From positions 1 to 57,307 of the forward strand of contig JAJFUE010000028.1 in assembly GCA_021372575.1 (NCBI GenBank): DNA of 57,307 nucleotides. The letters are read 5' to 3'. This DNA comes from a bacterium (GTDB lineage Bacteria; Sumerlaeota; Sumerlaeia; MVZB01). The notes beneath the pieces were generated by a model. The model was given only the letters and a program-made list of their open reading frames with translations. It made no database searches and was not told where the DNA came from. The number at the start of each line of letters is the position of its first letter. Positions within the stretch are counted from its first letter, which is position 1. Below are positions 26,598 through 52,007 of this stretch, one piece after another. The translations under genes and the position numbers were made by a program.

Positions 26598-27515
26598 CTA
26601 CCGCATCATGTATTCCCTCAACAAGCCATCCCCCACCCCGCTGCGGATGAGGATCAACCTGCTCATGCCGAATTTTCTCATCACCGCCCTGAGGACCAGC
26701 GAACCCGAGAGGATCACTTCGGCGCGCGCCTGATCGATCGGATAATATGCGCACATCTGCTCGACGCTCATCCCGCGCAGGCGCCCGATGATCGTGTCCA
26801 GTTCGCCGAGTGTCAAGCCGCTTGTATCCTTGCCGGCCATGATGGTGAGCGCGGTGATCGTTCCGCCGGAGCCAATCAGTTCCGTGTCCGGATCGATCGG
26901 CGGGTTTCCGATCATGCGGTCAAGCACTTCGCGGATGTTGTCTTCAACCGCGTCGATATCCGCGGCCGAGGGCGGAATCGTCCGGAAAAACATTTCTTTC
27001 AACCGCACCGCGCCAATCGGCGTCGAAACCGCGCGTTCTATGCGGCCGCCGCGCGCCTGGATGATTTCCGTCGAGCCGCCGCCGATATCGGCGATCACGC
27101 ACGGCGCATTCGCATCGGGACGGCATGACAAAACCCCCATGCCGATCAATTGCGCCTCCCTGTCGTCATCGATGATTTCGATATCGATGTTCGCCGCGCG
27201 CCGGATGGCTTCGATCAAATCGGCCGTGTTTTGCGCCTCGCGCGCGGCGCTGGTCGTCACGGCGCGATACGCCGTGACCCCGAGCGCGTCCATCTCGCCG
27301 CGAATCGAACGGTAAACATCGGCGGCGGCCGAGATCGTTTCCGGCGCGATCCGTCCGGTCGCAAACACGCCTTCGCCGATCCGCATCGGGTAGCGCCGCT
27401 CGGCGATCTGCCAGGCTTCGCCCGGCCTCTTCAGTTCCCAGACGCGGTATTTGGTCGCGTTGCTGCCGGCGTCGATCGCCATGAAACGCAGGGGATACTT
27501 CGGTTTTGGGTTCAT
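26598..27515 (-). CDS. ppx: exopolyphosphatase / pppGpp phosphohydrolase family (Ppx/GppA)
   Basis: 305 residues, the short single-module form of the actin-like ASKHA phosphatases. Phosphate-1 loop FMAIDAGSNATKYRV, a second loop IADIGGGSTEI (about residue 144) and the adenosine-type loop LIGSGGT (about 212) are intact. It hydrolyses polyphosphate and/or pppGpp. Overlaps nfo by four bases (27512-27515), so coupled translation is likely. Confidence 0.9.
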   Translation of the reverse strand: MNPKPKYPLRFMAIDAGSNATKYRVWELKRPGEAWQIAERRYPMRIGEGVFATGRIAPETISAAADVYRSIRGEMDALGVTAYRAVTTSAAREAQNTADLIEAIRRAANIDIEIIDDDREAQLIGMGVLSCRPDANAPCVIADIGGGSTEIIQARGGRIERAVSTPIGAVRLKEMFFRTIPPSAADIDAVEDNIREVLDRMIGNPPIDPDTELIGSGGTITALTIMAGKDTSGLTLGELDTIIGRLRGMSVEQMCAYYPIDQARAEVILSGSLVLRAVMRKFGMSRLILIRSGVGDGLLREYMMR

Positions 27516-33369: not shown

Positions 33370-35142
33370 TTATTTCGACGATTTGTCTTTCGCTTTCGTC
33401 GTGTCGGCGTCCTGCCAGGCCCCGAGCCCGCGCATCATGCGATCGACCTCGCGGGCCGTCGCCGGGCCACCGGTCGTCAGGCCGTCCTCGAACTTCGTCG
33501 CGCCCGGCGCCTTCCCCTGTTCGAGTTGGGCCAGCGTGAGCCGGTCGCGCACCATCGTGTAGAAACTGCGCGCCTGCCGATACGTCACCGTGCCCTTGTA
33601 GTGCTTGAAAATCGTCTGGAGCAGCCGGTTGGCCTCGTCGTAATCGCCCGAATAATACGCGCGCTGGGCCTTCTCGAGCAGACCCACGGCCTGCTGGTTC
33701 TGATCCGACTGGCGCAGCCTCAGGCCATCGCGAATCATCCGATCGAGCTCGCGCGCCTGCGCCAGAAAGCCTTCGCCGGGGTTTCCAATCATGAACTGCT
33801 GGACCGCGCCGAGCGCATCGACGAGCTGGCCCTTTTCATACATGCCAAGGATGCGCTTGAGCTCGCGATCGGCCAGATCGACCTTGATCCGGCCGATGTA
33901 GGCCTCGGCATTGGGACCGACGACCGGGTGATCGAGCGCCTTTTCGAACTGGCGCAACGCCTCGTCGCTGAGCCCGTTCTTGCGGCACCACACGCCGAGT
34001 TCGTAATGTCCCACCTGGTCGCCGTCCTTGATCGCGGCGAGCTTTTCGCGGTAATCGACGCGCAGCAATTCGGTCGCGCCGCCGCCGGCCTGGATGCTTT
34101 CGGCCTTGCGGTAATCCTCGCGTGCGTCGTCGTACTTGCCGGCGCGGACGTTGCGCGCGCCCTGGTCGCGCCAGAGCCGCACGAGATGTTCCTTCGCAAA
34201 ATCGGGCACCTGGCCCAGACCATACTTTTCGTAAAGCTCGGCGGCCTCGGCGAGTTGCCCGCGCTGCCGCATCGTCATCTCGGCCTCTTCGAGCGTCACG
34301 CGAATCCGGTCGCGCGCGATCTCCGGCGCGTCATCGACGAGCTGTTCAATGTAAAGGTCGAGCGCGTCGGTGACCTTGCCGGCATCGCGCAGCCGGCGCC
34401 CCCATTCAAGGACGTATTGCGTCTTGCGCGCGCTTGCGAACTTCGGGTCGATCCGTTCGATGCGGCGCAGCGTGTCGATGCCGTTCTTGTAATCGTTGGT
34501 CAGGACGTCCTGCTCGACCTGCGCCTCGAGCCTCTCGGCCAGCTGTTTCGCAAGGTCCGGGTGGTCTTCGAAATATTTCGGCCCGAGCACCTCGAGCAGC
34601 CCGTCGATCTTGTCGAATTCGCCCAGCGCGGCGTGAAGCTGGACGCGCGCGGCGATGAGTTCGTCGGCGCGCGGGATCCGCACGTCGTCGAGTTTCGTCA
34701 GGATCCCGCTCAACGCGGTACGCGCCTCGGGTTTGAATTGATCGACGGACTTGACGATCGCATCGGCCTGGACCAGCAGCATCGTCGCGACCGACTCGGG
34801 CGCCGCGCCCGCCTTGATCCCATCGGCCATCGCGAGGATCGCCTGGTCGAGATCGCGCCGGCCGAACGCCTCGCGCGCGGCGATCATCTGGTTGTCGCCC
34901 TGGCCGCCCGGCAGGATTTTGCGGATCTGCGCGCGCGGGACGGTGATCGTCGCCTTGCCGACGCGGATCCTGACGTTGCTCGACGCATCCTCCCAGCCGG
35001 GCTCGAGGACGCCCTCGACGATCCGGCCGTCGTTGCGGTAGATGCGGTCGGCAAACGCCGGCCGGCACAAGCCGCCAATCCATAAAATCGCAATGGCTAA
35101 TGCCAACGGCCGAAAATGATTTTTTATCTTAGTCTTTTTCAT
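33370..35142 (-). CDS. exported TPR-repeat protein
   Basis: 590 residues. A signal peptide (basic MKKTKIK start, hydrophobic core, AFA|DR about residue 31) is followed by a segment resembling an SH3-like module (RIYRNDGRIVEGVL...GKATITVPRAQIRKI), then TPR-like helical repeats to near the end and a charged tail with KAKDKSS. Probably periplasmic. It sits seven bases after the broken PBP4-like gene on the same strand, so it may belong to the panD-PBP4 transcript. Function unknown. Confidence 0.8.
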   Translation of the reverse strand: MKKTKIKNHFRPLALAIAILWIGGLCRPAFADRIYRNDGRIVEGVLEPGWEDASSNVRIRVGKATITVPRAQIRKILPGGQGDNQMIAAREAFGRRDLDQAILAMADGIKAGAAPESVATMLLVQADAIVKSVDQFKPEARTALSGILTKLDDVRIPRADELIAARVQLHAALGEFDKIDGLLEVLGPKYFEDHPDLAKQLAERLEAQVEQDVLTNDYKNGIDTLRRIERIDPKFASARKTQYVLEWGRRLRDAGKVTDALDLYIEQLVDDAPEIARDRIRVTLEEAEMTMRQRGQLAEAAELYEKYGLGQVPDFAKEHLVRLWRDQGARNVRAGKYDDAREDYRKAESIQAGGGATELLRVDYREKLAAIKDGDQVGHYELGVWCRKNGLSDEALRQFEKALDHPVVGPNAEAYIGRIKVDLADRELKRILGMYEKGQLVDALGAVQQFMIGNPGEGFLAQARELDRMIRDGLRLRQSDQNQQAVGLLEKAQRAYYSGDYDEANRLLQTIFKHYKGTVTYRQARSFYTMVRDRLTLAQLEQGKAPGATKFEDGLTTGGPATAREVDRMMRGLGAWQDADTTKAKDKSSK

Positions 35143-35148
35143 TGGATT

Positions 35149-36687
35149 TTACGGATGGCCGGCTTCGCCGATGTGGGTCAGGTCGAGCACGATCCGCTCG
35201 ATCTGGCCGCGGAGGATCTTCGCCGGCGCGCGCGAGCCGTTCACCATGATCACGAAATACACGCCGTTGCCCGAGGGCGACTCGGTCCAGCCCGCGATCG
35301 CCTCGAGGCCTTCCGACGAGGTGACGACGGCGTGCAGCGGCGCCCTGGAATCGAACCGCCCGGCCAGCACGCCCTCGCCGGCATGCGGCACAAAAGAAAC
35401 GAACCTCGCGCCGTTTTCCTGCCGGGATGCGCGCCGCATGAGGTCGATCACGTTTTCGGCGGTCAGCCGGTCGAACGCCGAGCGGCCGGAGCCGTCAAAC
35501 AGGCGCGTCGGCGCATGCGGCAGCAGCAGTTGCCGCCCGAGGTAATCGCTCCGCGCGGCGCGGCCGCTTTCGAAATTGCCGCGCTGCCCGTCGGCCTTCA
35601 TCCCCATCGCCTTCAGGAGAACCTCGGCCTCGAGCGCCGAATCGTTCCGCAGCATGTTATCGACGATCTTCGACAGCGGCGCCGAACGACGCCGGTCGAG
35701 CACGGTCGTCCGGCTCGGCATCGCGTCGTCGGCGACGGTCGCGCTCGAGCAGCCCTTGCCCTCGACTTTCACCCCATTTTCGATCAGCCGTTGCTTCAGC
35801 GCCTCGGCGAAAAAGCGCCCCGGGTCCTCGATCGCCGCACGGTCGTGCGCCGCCGTCTTTACGGGCAGGTCCCCGCCGACCGAGATCAGGTTGCCCTGTT
35901 CGACGCGCTTATAGACGCGCTCGCGCCGCATGTTCTCGGCGGTCTTGACGTGATTGGCGAAGAACAGGTATTCGCCGATGTCGGGAAATACCTTGCACGT
36001 CGCCGCCTTGCCCGGCTTGCGGATCTTGTCGTAGGTGATGTCGAGCACGTTGTTGTTGAAGTTCACCGCGGAGATGCTCGGCAGGTCGGCCGCGCCGATT
36101 CGCTGCATCGGCCACCCCGGCCCATACCAGTCGTTGTCGAACGCGCGCGCGTCGGCAACCACCGCGCCGGTGACCTTCTTGATTTTCTGATCCTTGATCT
36201 TTCCGACCCAGCCGTCCAAAACCTTCGTCAACGCCGCCTCGCTCATGTATTGCGAGGAAAGCGACGGATCGCCGTTGGAGCGAATCACGATCGACCCGGT
36301 CAGCGTCTTCTCTTGATTGTCGATCTGGCCCGCATAGCCGATCTCGGTCGTGAACTGGTAATCCGGCCCAAGCAGGTCGAGCGCCGCGGCGGCCGTGAAT
36401 AACTGCACGAGCGAGCCGGGCTGCATGAACTTGTCGGCCTGCCGCGAATACAACACCTACGGCGAGTTGAAGTCGGCGACCATGATCGCGAGCTGGCCGT
36501 CGCCCCAGTCCATGTCCTTCATGAGGCCCGCCAGGCGCTTGCCGACGGGCGTCTCGGTCGTGTCGGTGGTCTCCGCCGACATGCGCGCCGCCGCGGCGTT
36601 CACGGCGCCCGCGACCGCATGCCTGGCCGGCATCAACAGGATGACCATCGCCAGGATGCAGGCAATCCGAACAAATTTCTGAGTCAT
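35149..36687 (-). pseudogene. PBP4/DacB-like (peptidase family S13) protein with in-frame amber codon and lost active site
   Basis: Read from ATG 36687, the frame opens with a signal peptide, reaches DFNSP, meets TAG at 36459-36457, and continues for 435 more codons that align naturally (VLYSRQADKFMQPGS...). PBP4 landmarks are clear: LFTAAAALDLLGP, NGDPSLSS, GPGW, DGSGRSAFDRLTAENV. Yet each catalytic motif is changed: SxxK reads SLVQ, SxN reads SAL (about residue 273 counted from 36456), and KTG reads VVT (about 377-379). So even with readthrough it should not be a D,D-carboxypeptidase. Either a decaying gene or a pseudoenzyme with a recent nonsense change or sequencing error. It lies 23 nt downstream of panD. 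Confidence 0.8.
36457..36687 (-). CDS. N-terminal fragment of the PBP4-like gene (signal peptide plus about 50 residues)
   Basis: 76 residues if the TAG is obeyed: signal peptide (VRIACILAMVILLMPARHAVA) and the start of the mature domain up to DFNSP. It cannot fold as a PBP4 domain alone. It is listed so the break is explicit; the downstream piece (from GTG 36456) would have no signal peptide. Confidence 0.55.
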   Translation of the reverse strand: MTQKFVRIACILAMVILLMPARHAVAGAVNAAAARMSAETTDTTETPVGKRLAGLMKDMDWGDGQLAIMVADFNSP

Positions 36688-36710: not shown

Positions 36711-37112
36711 TCAGCATTCGTGGTCGCGGTCGCGCGGGACCGGTTGCGGGATTTCGTTGATGATTTCGCGGATGTCGTTGTCGTCGTCGAGCAGGACCAG
36801 CCGGGGCTTGTGCCGCCGGGCCTCTTCGGCCTCCATGTCGCAATAGGCGATGATGATGACCTTGTCGCCGATCTGGGCCAGCCGCGCCGCCGCGCCATTG
36901 AGGCAAATCATACGCGATCCGGGCTCGCCGGCATAGGTGTAAGTTTCGAACCGCGCCCCGGTGTTCAGGTTGACGACCTGGACTTTCTCGAACGGAAGGA
37001 TCCCGGACGCGTCGAGCAGTTCCTCGTCGATCGTGATCGAGCCTTCGTAATCAAGCCGGGCCTGCGTGATCGTGGCCCGGTGGAGCTTGCATTTGCACAT
37101 CGTCAGGCGCAT
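36711..37112 (-). CDS. panD: aspartate 1-decarboxylase proenzyme
   Basis: 133 residues. Makes beta-alanine for pantothenate/CoA. The self-cleavage site is the Gly-Ser of YEGSITID, which yields the pyruvoyl group; [12 protein letters not shown] and the [10 protein letters not shown] motif with GDKVIIIAY are typical. I choose ATG 37112 (MRLTMCKCK), with GAGGA about ten bases upstream; the frame extends to 37184 but that part is not PanD-like. A C-terminal acidic extension follows the usual end. Confidence 0.93.
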
Positions 37113-37453
37113 CGGAATGAATTCCTCGGTGAACGGCAACTCGCGGCCGCATCCCAAAGGCGGCCCCGAGCAACAGATTAGCAAAATTCGAAGGTTAATA
37201 GAAATTGAAAATCAAATTCAATATCACAAGATACACGAAAAGAAGTCAGTATGCTTGCAGTCTCGACATCGATATTTGCGGGGGGCTGATGAAGCGCGCG
37301 CGCTGAAAGCGCAACAAGAATAAAGCCCGGGGCAAAGCGAAGCGACGCCCCGGGTCAGGCCGCAAGAATCCACGAGCTCTGCAAGAGCAGAAGAAATCGT
37401 GCGAGTTCTTATCTTTCGCGCTTAAATTTTCATCTCTCATCTTTCATCTTTCA
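37113..37453. other. intergenic region upstream of panD
   Basis: Contains about 80 nt of AT-rich sequence next to panD (37170-37260), where its promoter probably lies, then a REP-like module (37298-37405) and a heptamer array (37430-37456) that belongs to the end of the M20 peptidase gene. No coding sequence seen. Confidence 0.6.
37298..37405. repeat. REP-like module, single orientation
   Basis: GCGCTGAAAGCGC (37300-37312), then the stem CCCGGGGC/GCCCCGGG (37326-37333 and 37347-37354) with the loop AAAGCGAAGCGAC, then a degenerate third arm near 37373-37395. Same order and spacing as the modules at 26.4 and 41.2 kb. Confidence 0.87.
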
Positions 37454-40320: not shown

Positions 40321-40515
40321 CCAAACGATTCATCATGACGCGAACGAACGGCAACAACCCAGCGCTAAAAGCGCGAGAGAAAGCGAACAACCATATCGCA
40401 ATCCAAATCGAGGCGAGAGTGAGGAAAAAACCAAACGATTTTGCCACGCCCCGAACGATGGGCATCACGCCAGCGCTGAAAGCGCGGGAGAAAGCAACCG
40501 ACCATGTCGCAATCC
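40321..40515 (+). repeat. two imperfect 84-nt direct repeats left of the RAYT gene
   Basis: Copy 1 (40321-40404) and copy 2 (40431-40515) share CCAAACGATT, a GCGCTRAAAGCGC palindrome (40362-40374; 40473-40485), GAGAAAGC and CCATRTCGCAATCC. Copy 2 contains the RAYT start codon (ATG 40504), and copy 1 has ATA at the same place. The duplication therefore includes the first 12 nt of the gene. Confidence 0.85.
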
Positions 40516-40956
40516 CTGGTCCAGATGTATGTCCACCTCATCTTCTCGACCAAGAACCGGGTGAATTTCATTCATCCCGATCTTCGCGCCGATCTTTGTG
40601 CCTATATGGGCGCCACGCTTCGCAATTTGGAATCACCGGCGATCAGCATCAATTGCGTTTCGGATCATATTCGCATTCTATATTCGCATTCGAAAAAGTT
40701 GACGCTCATTAAACTGCTTGAGGAAATCAAAAAAGAATCGTCGAAATGGACAAAGACAAAAGGCGATGATTTGGCGAAATTCTACTGGCAAACAGGATAC
40801 GGAGCATTTTCCGTCAGCGCTTCACGGGTGCCAAACGTGAAGCTTTACATCGAGAACCAGGAAAATCATCATAAACGCGTTTCCTTTCAGGACGAATTGC
40901 GTCAATTTTTTAAGGAATATGGAATAACGTGGGATGAACGTTATGTTTGGGACTGA
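40504..40956 (+). CDS. REP-associated tyrosine transposase (IS200-like Y1 family), HUH motif degraded
   Basis: 150 residues, full length for this small RAYT group: MSQSLVQMYVHLIFSTKNR start, catalytic-tyrosine helix with Y115 (VKLYIENQENHH), GYGAFSVS, and the family ending DERYVWD. The usual metal-binding His-hydrophobic-His is H55-I56-R57 (SDHIRIL), a one-base change of CAC to CGC. In characterised Y1 transposases both histidines are needed, so it may be inactive. AT-richer than its neighbours and embedded in REP-like repeats on both sides, which supports a mobile origin. Confidence 0.88.
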   Translation: MSQSLVQMYVHLIFSTKNRVNFIHPDLRADLCAYMGATLRNLESPAISINCVSDHIRILYSHSKKLTLIKLLEEIKKESSKWTKTKGDDLAKFYWQTGYGAFSVSASRVPNVKLYIENQENHHKRVSFQDELRQFFKEYGITWDERYVWD

Positions 40957-40961
40957 TTTCT

Positions 40962-41260
40962 CTCGCTCTTTCAGAGCTCGGGTGTTTTGGTCCCCGTACC
41001 TGGGGCGGCGCTGCGCTCTGCCCCAGGCTATATTCTTGTTGCGCTTTCAGCGCGCGCGTTTTGATCAAGGGAATGGTAAGCAACCAATCCATCACTATCA
41101 TGAAAGAGAAAAAAAGAAGCCGAACGGAATTGCCGAAGAGCAACGGAGCATAAAACAACCTAGCGCTGAAAGCGCGATAAGAATATAGCCCGGGGCAGAG
41201 CGAAGCGACGCCCCGGGTCAGGCGGACCAAAAACCCAAGCGCTGAAAGCGCGAGAGAAAT
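40962..41260. repeat. REP-like modules right of the RAYT gene, head-to-head
   Basis: Just after the RAYT stop: inverted module with stem CCTGGGGC/GCCCCAGG (40999-41027) and GCGCTTTCAGCGC (41041-41053). After about 110 nt of AT-rich filler comes a direct module: GCGCTGAAAGCGC (41163-41175), CCCGGGGC/GCCCCGGG (41189-41217) and GCGCTGAAAGCGC (41239-41251). The last copy ends 30 nt before the response-regulator start. Confidence 0.9.
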
Positions 41261-50978: not shown

Positions 50979-52007
50979 ATGAAACGAATCAGCCGCACCC
51001 CAGAGATAATTAGTCTATTCGAAGAAATATCACGTGCTGGGAACCTAAAAATACAAGATCCGACCAGTCAGAAAGAAATTCTTGATCGGATATCAAGCAC
51101 GTTCAAAAAATGCAAAGAGAACCCAATCTTCGTTCATGGTCATCGTACAGAATCCATGTTCGAATACGTTGTGGCCGCTCTTGGGGAAGTTTCTTTAATC
51201 AAACGCGAAGACGTCGGAAACATTTTTTGCTCAAATAAGACGATCCGGCCACCAGATTTCAGTATTCTTCTCAAAGACGGCACAGGAATATTTGTCGAAG
51301 TTAAAAATTTCCATAAGTACAGCGCAGACGCCATTTTTTCGATTAGAAATAATGATTTTGAAGAGTTGTGTAATTACGCAAAATTATTCAAGCAGGATTT
51401 GTATTTTGCGATTTATTGGTCGTGTTGGGGAGCATGGACCCTTATAGCTATCGATGATTTTGAACAGAAAGAAAAACCTTCGATTACATTCCCCGAAGCG
51501 ATGAAGAAAAATAAAATGTCCTTACTTGGAGATTTGATGGTAGGCACAACACCGCCACTATCTTATCGGCTTTTCGCCGACCGTAACAAGCCCCGAGTTA
51601 TGGAAAAGAATGGAGCTATTGAATTTACGATTGGCGGGTTTGAGATTTATTGCAACGGATTACGGATCGAAGAAGAAATTGAAAAAAAGCTCGCCCTATA
51701 CTTTATTTTTTATTCAGATTGGGAGGCAAATGAACCTGAAGCAAAGTTTGAACGTGATCAATTGGACTATATTGAACAAATTTTCCTACCAAAAGAAGGC
51801 TATACCGATCGGAAAATATATCTGTTTGGTTTTTTAAGTCAGATGATCTCTAGACATTACAAAGAGGCGACCTCAGAAGACGGCGTTATTCATCGACTAA
51901 GCCCGATCAAAGAACCGGAAGCGTTTAGCATCGGTTTGTCGAAGAATTATAAAGGGAAACAATTAGGACTCGCTATTATTACTGTTAAGGCTAACAATAA
52001 CGCGTAG
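50979..52007 (+). CDS. orphan PD-(D/E)xK nuclease-like protein on an AT-rich island
   Basis: 342 residues, unknown family. Residues 91-109 fit a PD-(D/E)xK nuclease core: PPDF with D93, then E107-V-K109 in GIFVEVKNF, with an acidic helix before it (E58, E62). The C-terminal 200 residues are alpha/beta, rich in Lys, Ile and Glu, with no recognisable partner domain. The codons are A/T-rich in strong contrast to both neighbours, as is the 190-nt upstream region, so recent transfer is likely. A restriction, repair or defence role is possible but inferred from the fold motif only. Confidence 0.75.
   Translation: MKRISRTPEIISLFEEISRAGNLKIQDPTSQKEILDRISSTFKKCKENPIFVHGHRTESMFEYVVAALGEVSLIKREDVGNIFCSNKTIRPPDFSILLKDGTGIFVEVKNFHKYSADAIFSIRNNDFEELCNYAKLFKQDLYFAIYWSCWGAWTLIAIDDFEQKEKPSITFPEAMKKNKMSLLGDLMVGTTPPLSYRLFADRNKPRVMEKNGAIEFTIGGFEIYCNGLRIEEEIEKKLALYFIFYSDWEANEPEAKFERDQLDYIEQIFLPKEGYTDRKIYLFGFLSQMISRHYKEATSEDGVIHRLSPIKEPEAFSIGLSKNYKGKQLGLAIITVKANNNA

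Follow-up and report, generated by a model that had tools for sequence, protein, structure and literature searches.

The window, the whole 57,307-nucleotide stretch of Sumerlaeota DNA analysed here, carries on its reverse strand a PBP4 (Peptidase_S13) homologue with defective catalytic motifs and an internal TAG (Table 1). The gene opens at ATG 36687, with GAGG about 11 bases 5′ of it, and its translation closes at the TAA at 35149. The earlier note had called it a PBP4-like gene open but for one TAG, and this identification is borne out: the 512 codons are interrupted solely at codon 77, and Pfam Peptidase_S13 (PF02113) matches the read-through product at 1.2e-64 and the frame downstream of the TAG at 1.5e-60. 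The read-through match spans positions 5-427 of 444 and scores 219 against a cut-off of 22.8; the gene is therefore not a chance ORF. Solved PBP4 structures are also retrieved by sequence with the window protein (best E 7.5e-26). GC by codon position is 0.63/0.45/0.88 over the whole gene and 0.61/0.47/0.92 5′ of the TAG, similar enough for the two parts to be read as a single coding gene. The stretch 5′ of the TAG has a GC3 typical of coding sequence and still aligns to the homologue from genome G002, at 35% identity across 51 codons. Long antisense ORFs at the gene are probably by-products of GC-rich sequence. Hydrophobic N-termini, judged by eye, suggest that the window protein and the other members of its clade are secreted; the protein from genome G021 has a lipobox-like LVITSGC.

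Table 1. Features of the window, with positions counted from its first letter.
Feature	Position	Strand	Basis
Motif-defective PBP4 (Peptidase_S13) homologue, 512 codons + TAA, one internal TAG	35149..36687	-	translation, Pfam, modelled fold
In-frame TAG, codon 77, domain I segment right before the SxxK helix	36457..36459	-	translation
GTG right behind the TAG, mechanical start of a 435-aa open frame; without SD-like sequence	36454..36456	-	
SxxK site, S-L-V-Q; nucleophile Ser kept, Lys replaced	36403..36414	-	alignment
Arg aligned with DAP-contacting Asp155 of E. coli PBP4 (Trp+4)	36100..36102	-	sequence alignment
SxN site, D-S-A	35635..35643	-	alignment anchored on conserved Ala-Glu 3′ of SxN
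KTG site, V-V-T	35320..35328	-	alignment
Downstream gene, 6 bases past the PBP4 stop, encoding a TPR protein with a hydrophobic segment at its N-terminus; may be an operon partner	33370..35142	-	
Upstream gene panD (aspartate decarboxylase), same strand	36711..37184	-	
Ppx/GppA gene ending in TAG	26598..27515		Pfam
Repeat and transposase region	40334..41260		
IS200-like Y1 transposase gene	40504..40956		
342-aa ORF ending in TAG	50979..52007		

The three motifs expected of an active DD-carboxypeptidase/endopeptidase (PBP4), SxxK, SxN and KTG, are all broken in the window protein, which the full-domain profile match nonetheless places in Peptidase_S13/PBP4 as a homologous family. The earlier note had reported the loss of all three. 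Its readings of SLVQ and VVT stand, whereas its "SAL" lies one residue off the true SxN site, D-S-A; in SxxK, the lysine is gone and the nucleophilic serine is still present. To place this defect in context, 41 alignment columns at least 85% conserved over 104 homologues with intact motifs were taken as the conserved set, seven of them being catalytic positions. The window protein retains one of these seven, against 28 of the 34 other conserved positions (Fisher p = 0.0012), and the defect is thus not random scatter.

The remainder of the protein is predicted to fold as PBP4 does. An AlphaFold2 model of the read-through protein, built from an alignment of 32 sequences, has a mean pLDDT of 90.1 and a pTM of 0.88. 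It superimposes on B. subtilis PBP4a (1w5d) with Z 42.0 over 440 residues (rmsd 2.3), on Actinomadura R39 with Z 41.3 over 443 residues (rmsd 2.6) and on E. coli PBP4 with Z 39-40 over 430-437 residues (rmsd 3.6-4.0; for 2ex2, Z 39.4, rmsd 3.6, 437 aligned), and Foldseek ranks the same PBP4 entries first. The model shows the penicilloyl-serine-transferase fold, and SxxK and SxN are separated by inserted domains. Since the structural matches run over the full length, the non-catalytic domains appear to have been kept.

Homologues were collected by searches of all 39 genomes of the class, 61 genomes in total; seven partial matches within long frames were left unfetched (G037:C385, G030:C42, G025:C77, G038:C172, G017:C288, G030:C1 and G037:C82:6168), and a contig scan using the window protein as single query gave no match. 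The window genome (G000) is a 4.63 Mb draft, 95.6% complete. The best matches come from G002, of the same family (43% identity), and G003, of the same order (33%), and both are motif-defective. Defects, different in each case, mark all of the nearest homologues, which come from the family, order and class of the window genome (Candidatus Sumerlaeota). At Ser,Lys / Ser,Asn / Lys-Thr-Gly the window protein reads SQ/DA/VVT; G002, GK/DP/KNG (Gly as the nucleophile residue, D-L-P, K-N-G); G003, EK/NT/LMS (Glu as the nucleophile residue, N-R-T, L-M-S); G008, AM/ST/VQG (Ala and Met in SxxK, S-Q-T, V-Q-G); G021, SK/NN/IHG (SxxK kept, N-D-N, I-H-G); and G010, SK/DN/MAG (SxxK kept, D-Q-N, M-A-G). Pairwise identity among the six is 22-40%. 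Pooled, they retain 167 of 196 conserved non-motif positions versus 15 of 42 motif positions, and DGSG is retained in all six. Four of the genes (G002, G003, G008, G021) have no internal stop; the interrupted ones are the window gene, by its TAG, and the G010 gene, by a frameshift. The latter (L036, G010:C805, 891-2722) has a long Pro/Ala/Ser-rich N-terminal extension and adjoins dapB- and dapA-like genes, as read by eye.

Such defects are confined to this group in the sequences compared. In the tree set of 110 sequences, these six alone lack the motifs; among the other 104, 96 read SK/SN/KTG, three are without the N-terminal part, one is a fragment covering SxxK only and four have a variant KTG (KPG twice, KAG, KSG). 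A second collection, of 41 loci drawn from many phyla, agrees with this: its grossly defective members are the five relatives named above. Two S13 proteins of two MAGs (L131, L135) have KDG instead of KTG and retain SxxK and SxN, and one locus of the 41 (L157) reads differently around SxxK, at the point where its frame breaks in two.

FastTree on all columns groups the six defective sequences with a support of 0.943. For IQ-TREE, 50 of the 110 sequences were sampled (17 near ones and 33 spread across the rest) and the motif neighbourhoods deleted; SH-aLRT/UFBoot values are then 63.4/91 for the six, 98.5/99 for the four nearest and 91.8/100 for the window protein with G002 and G003. The grouping persists once the motif columns are removed, and the clade is thus not an artefact of shared motif states. 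Fragments shorter than 300 residues (L114, L117) were excluded from the tree input and the fragment L038 was included; the L004 row overran its own stop (1039 aa), and a 60% occupancy filter was relied on to drop the surplus columns. The deep grouping of all six is moderately supported (SH-aLRT 63). The simplest account would be a single early loss of catalysis, after which the active site drifted separately in each lineage; alternatively, separate losses in G008 and G021 could have been grouped by long-branch attraction.

These relatives bear on two proposals of the earlier note. It had suggested a long life as a pseudoenzyme, with a plain pseudogene to be concluded should relatives encode an intact SxxK/SxN/KTG enzyme. 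The nearest homologues are themselves motif-defective, mostly uninterrupted and in one clade, which favours the former and leads us to reject a plain pseudogene of an intact enzyme as the sole reading. The check it proposed, a search for an uninterrupted relative with the same motif losses, came out positive in part: uninterrupted defective genes exist, each with its own set of losses.

The dN/dS comparison suggested there may also point to past constraint. Between the window gene and G002, codon differences by position are 0.44/0.36/0.53 over 497 codons. In a three-branch codon model, the fit worsens by 2dlnL 43.5 when omega is fixed at 1 on the window branch, and omega = 1 is rejected on all three branches, with synonymous sites saturated and branch lengths at or near their bound, in control triples too, such that the omega values themselves carry little meaning. 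The test tells us only that, over the greater part of the window branch, the gene was not dead. Root-to-tip distances from the common node are 1.25-1.61 for the defective members versus 0.83-1.13, the defective ones being somewhat faster.

Taken in aggregate, the data make it reasonably probable that the window gene belongs to an old Sumerlaeota lineage of PBP4 pseudoenzymes selected for non-catalytic extracytoplasmic work, and that its TAG is recent or an error. The sequence of events would be: loss of DD-peptidase catalysis before several Sumerlaeota families diverged; retention of secretion, as judged by eye, and of the whole multi-domain PBP4 fold, as modelled; selection, suggested by the constraint, for a non-catalytic extracytoplasmic protein; and, in the window copy, a later hit to the frame by a TAG, through a recent nonsense mutation or an assembly base error. 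The pattern expected of a pseudoenzyme lineage, loss of catalytic residues in several related uninterrupted genes, is present here in six clade members, four of them uninterrupted. Against this reading count the lack of a conserved neighbour, the interruption of two of the six genes, the faster defective branches, the saturation of synonymous sites and the moderate support for the clade of six. So does the finding that G001 and G016, which belong to the same families, have no S13 match, as expected for a dispensable gene.

The main rival is slow erosion of a paralogue, in which an S13 copy is no longer needed, catalytic residues drift first, and the TAG and the G010 frameshift mark the end stage. 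The census of S13 and S11 genes leaves room for this rival, with the S13 family being lost in these lineages. The window genome holds one further S13 protein with intact motifs (C214), and G003, G010 and G021 hold additional S13 fragments, intact in their motifs where covered; G002 (71% complete) and G008 (94%) have the defective S13 protein only. Peptidase_S11 (DacA-type) was found in none of G000, G002, G003, G008, G010 and G021, and was matched in 6 of 14 control genomes. Erosion would further account for the different substitutions in each lineage, the same faster branches and interruptions, the genomes devoid of S13 and the variable neighbourhood. It does not readily explain four uninterrupted frames whose products are 22-40% identical to the window protein, the high retention of conserved non-motif positions or the rejection of omega = 1 (at saturated synonymous sites). 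Nor would neutral decay break the active site yet spare a fold that is modelled with confidence over its full length. On balance, erosion is possible but unlikely.

If the protein was instead selected for non-catalytic work, the likeliest mechanism would be scaffolding or regulation of cell-wall enzymes via surfaces away from the active site. This is proposed by analogy with a catalytically dead PBP4 at midcell, with partner binding by PBP4 and with the LytM pattern. EnvC and NlpD are degenerate LytM factors kept as partners or activators. A comparable case is H. pylori Csd2 in Csd1-Csd2 (PMC5053510), likewise a degenerate peptidoglycan hydrolase kept as a partner or activator. Like these proteins, the clade members would have retained a peptidase fold past catalytic loss in a partner role, their own role being drawn by analogy; unlike them, they are not of the M23 metallopeptidase fold, which is unrelated, and the partners of EnvC, NlpD and Csd2 are known. 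Closer at hand, passages of PMC9166362 report that E. coli PBP4(S62G), although catalytically dead, is still found at midcell, that domain 3 is required for localisation and NlpI binding, and that PBP4 binds PBP1A, LpoA, EnvC and NlpI. The inactive PBP4(S62G/S62A) in these passages is an analogue, but an engineered laboratory mutant rather than a natural lineage. A full-text literature search did not find a natural motif-less S13/PBP4 family, and passages of PMC8092238, a paper on Sumerlaeota, mention no PBP; the word "penicillin" does not occur in it.

The specific form suggested earlier, a cell-wall-binding scaffold, is partly disfavoured by the alignment. According to the same passages of PMC9166362, Asp155 of E. 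coli PBP4 contacts DAP. In 59 of 101 intact sequences, and in 16 of 18 near ones, the equivalent position holds an acidic residue; the window protein, G002 and G003 have R, R and L there, and G010, G008 and G021 have D, E and Q. Replacement in the nearest three would weaken the case for reading of stem peptides in the old way. Identity between the window protein and G002 is flat across domains, at 41-46% in five blocks, and thus indicates no single functional surface. Compared with PBP4/DacB and PBP4a/DacC (PF02113; 2ex2, 1w5d, R39 1w79), the window protein shares the family, the full-length fold and, by eye, a secretion signal, and differs in its broken motifs and in the replaced DAP-contact position.

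NlpI is a TPR protein, and the gene immediately downstream of the window PBP4 encodes one. A bolder version of the scaffold idea would have the PBP4 pseudoenzymes of several Sumerlaeota families swap DD-peptidase activity for a scaffold role, the window protein pairing with this TPR protein in the manner of E. coli PBP4-NlpI. It invokes G008, in which the defective protein is the sole S13 found and no S11 was found; we regard it as rather improbable. No conserved neighbourhood emerged when the 39 class genomes were searched with PanD and the TPR protein and flanks were read: panD and the TPR gene lie beside a defective PBP4 in the window genome only. TPR homologues occur in 31 other class genomes, four of which also carry a defective PBP4 (G003, G008, G010, G021), and the two share a contig in none of the four. 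The TPR neighbour as a partner is a lead only. In G022, an intact S13 gene (C59:33412-34653) lies next to a TPR homologue (C59:34754-36340) in convergent orientation, which could be chance.

The pocket might also have acquired an altered catalysis, performing a different acyl transfer or hydrolysis. Here, the SxxK serine of the window protein, G021 and G010, the lysine retained in others and the invariant DGSG would be residues of use. However, none of the seven catalytic positions is common to all six proteins, and Gly, Glu and Ala as nucleophile residues in G002, G003 and G008 make a shared serine mechanism impossible. This renders the proposal very unlikely.

The TAG itself is most likely a stop, arisen by a recent nonsense mutation or an assembly base error, as the earlier note had allowed: TAG is an ordinary stop nearby. 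In relatives the frame can be open. Should the TAG be real, this genome probably makes no full-length protein. The third option in that note, readthrough, fared badly. Coding composition on either side of the TAG would suit readthrough or recoding into a full protein, but a Pfam-complete Ppx/GppA gene in the window ends in TAG, ARAGORN named a tRNA at 38 of the genome's 40 Rfam tRNA matches, none with a CUA anticodon (an incomplete set, several standard anticodons also being absent), and a search of the genome gave no PylS above the cut-off, which one control genome exceeds. Amber suppression and pyrrolysine insertion find no support here, and production of the full protein by readthrough is highly improbable. 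Equally hard to credit is a restart at the GTG, yielding a 435-aa cytosolic protein from the open frame 36456-35149: this GTG has no SD-like sequence, whereas ATG 36687 has one, and the product would have neither a signal peptide nor the first strand of domain I.

For annotation, the consequences extend beyond this gene. All five clade proteins tested exceed the 107.8 cut-off of the TIGR00666 PBP4 equivalog (NCBIfam), at 157.7-221.5 bits. The name of this model asserts a carboxypeptidase/endopeptidase activity that the residues of the clade would not allow, and an annotation pipeline would be expected to name these proteins active carboxypeptidases. PBP4-family proteins thus receive an enzyme annotation from profile score alone, and predictions of Sumerlaeota wall chemistry or beta-lactam targets made from annotation would be wrong for this clade. 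If the clade has been selected for non-catalytic work, it offers a natural separation-of-function experiment on the roles of PBP4 besides peptide cutting.

Elsewhere in the window, the 342-aa ORF has a GC3 of 0.39 versus 0.8-0.9 in most window genes and no Pfam match at 1e-5; it is probably foreign DNA. The Y1 transposase gene has a GC content below that of its surroundings. On its flanks stand 30-nt repeats, some copies direct and others inverted, that have an AGCGCT-AAAGCGC core, and these repeats with their transposase resemble a REP element with its RAYT.
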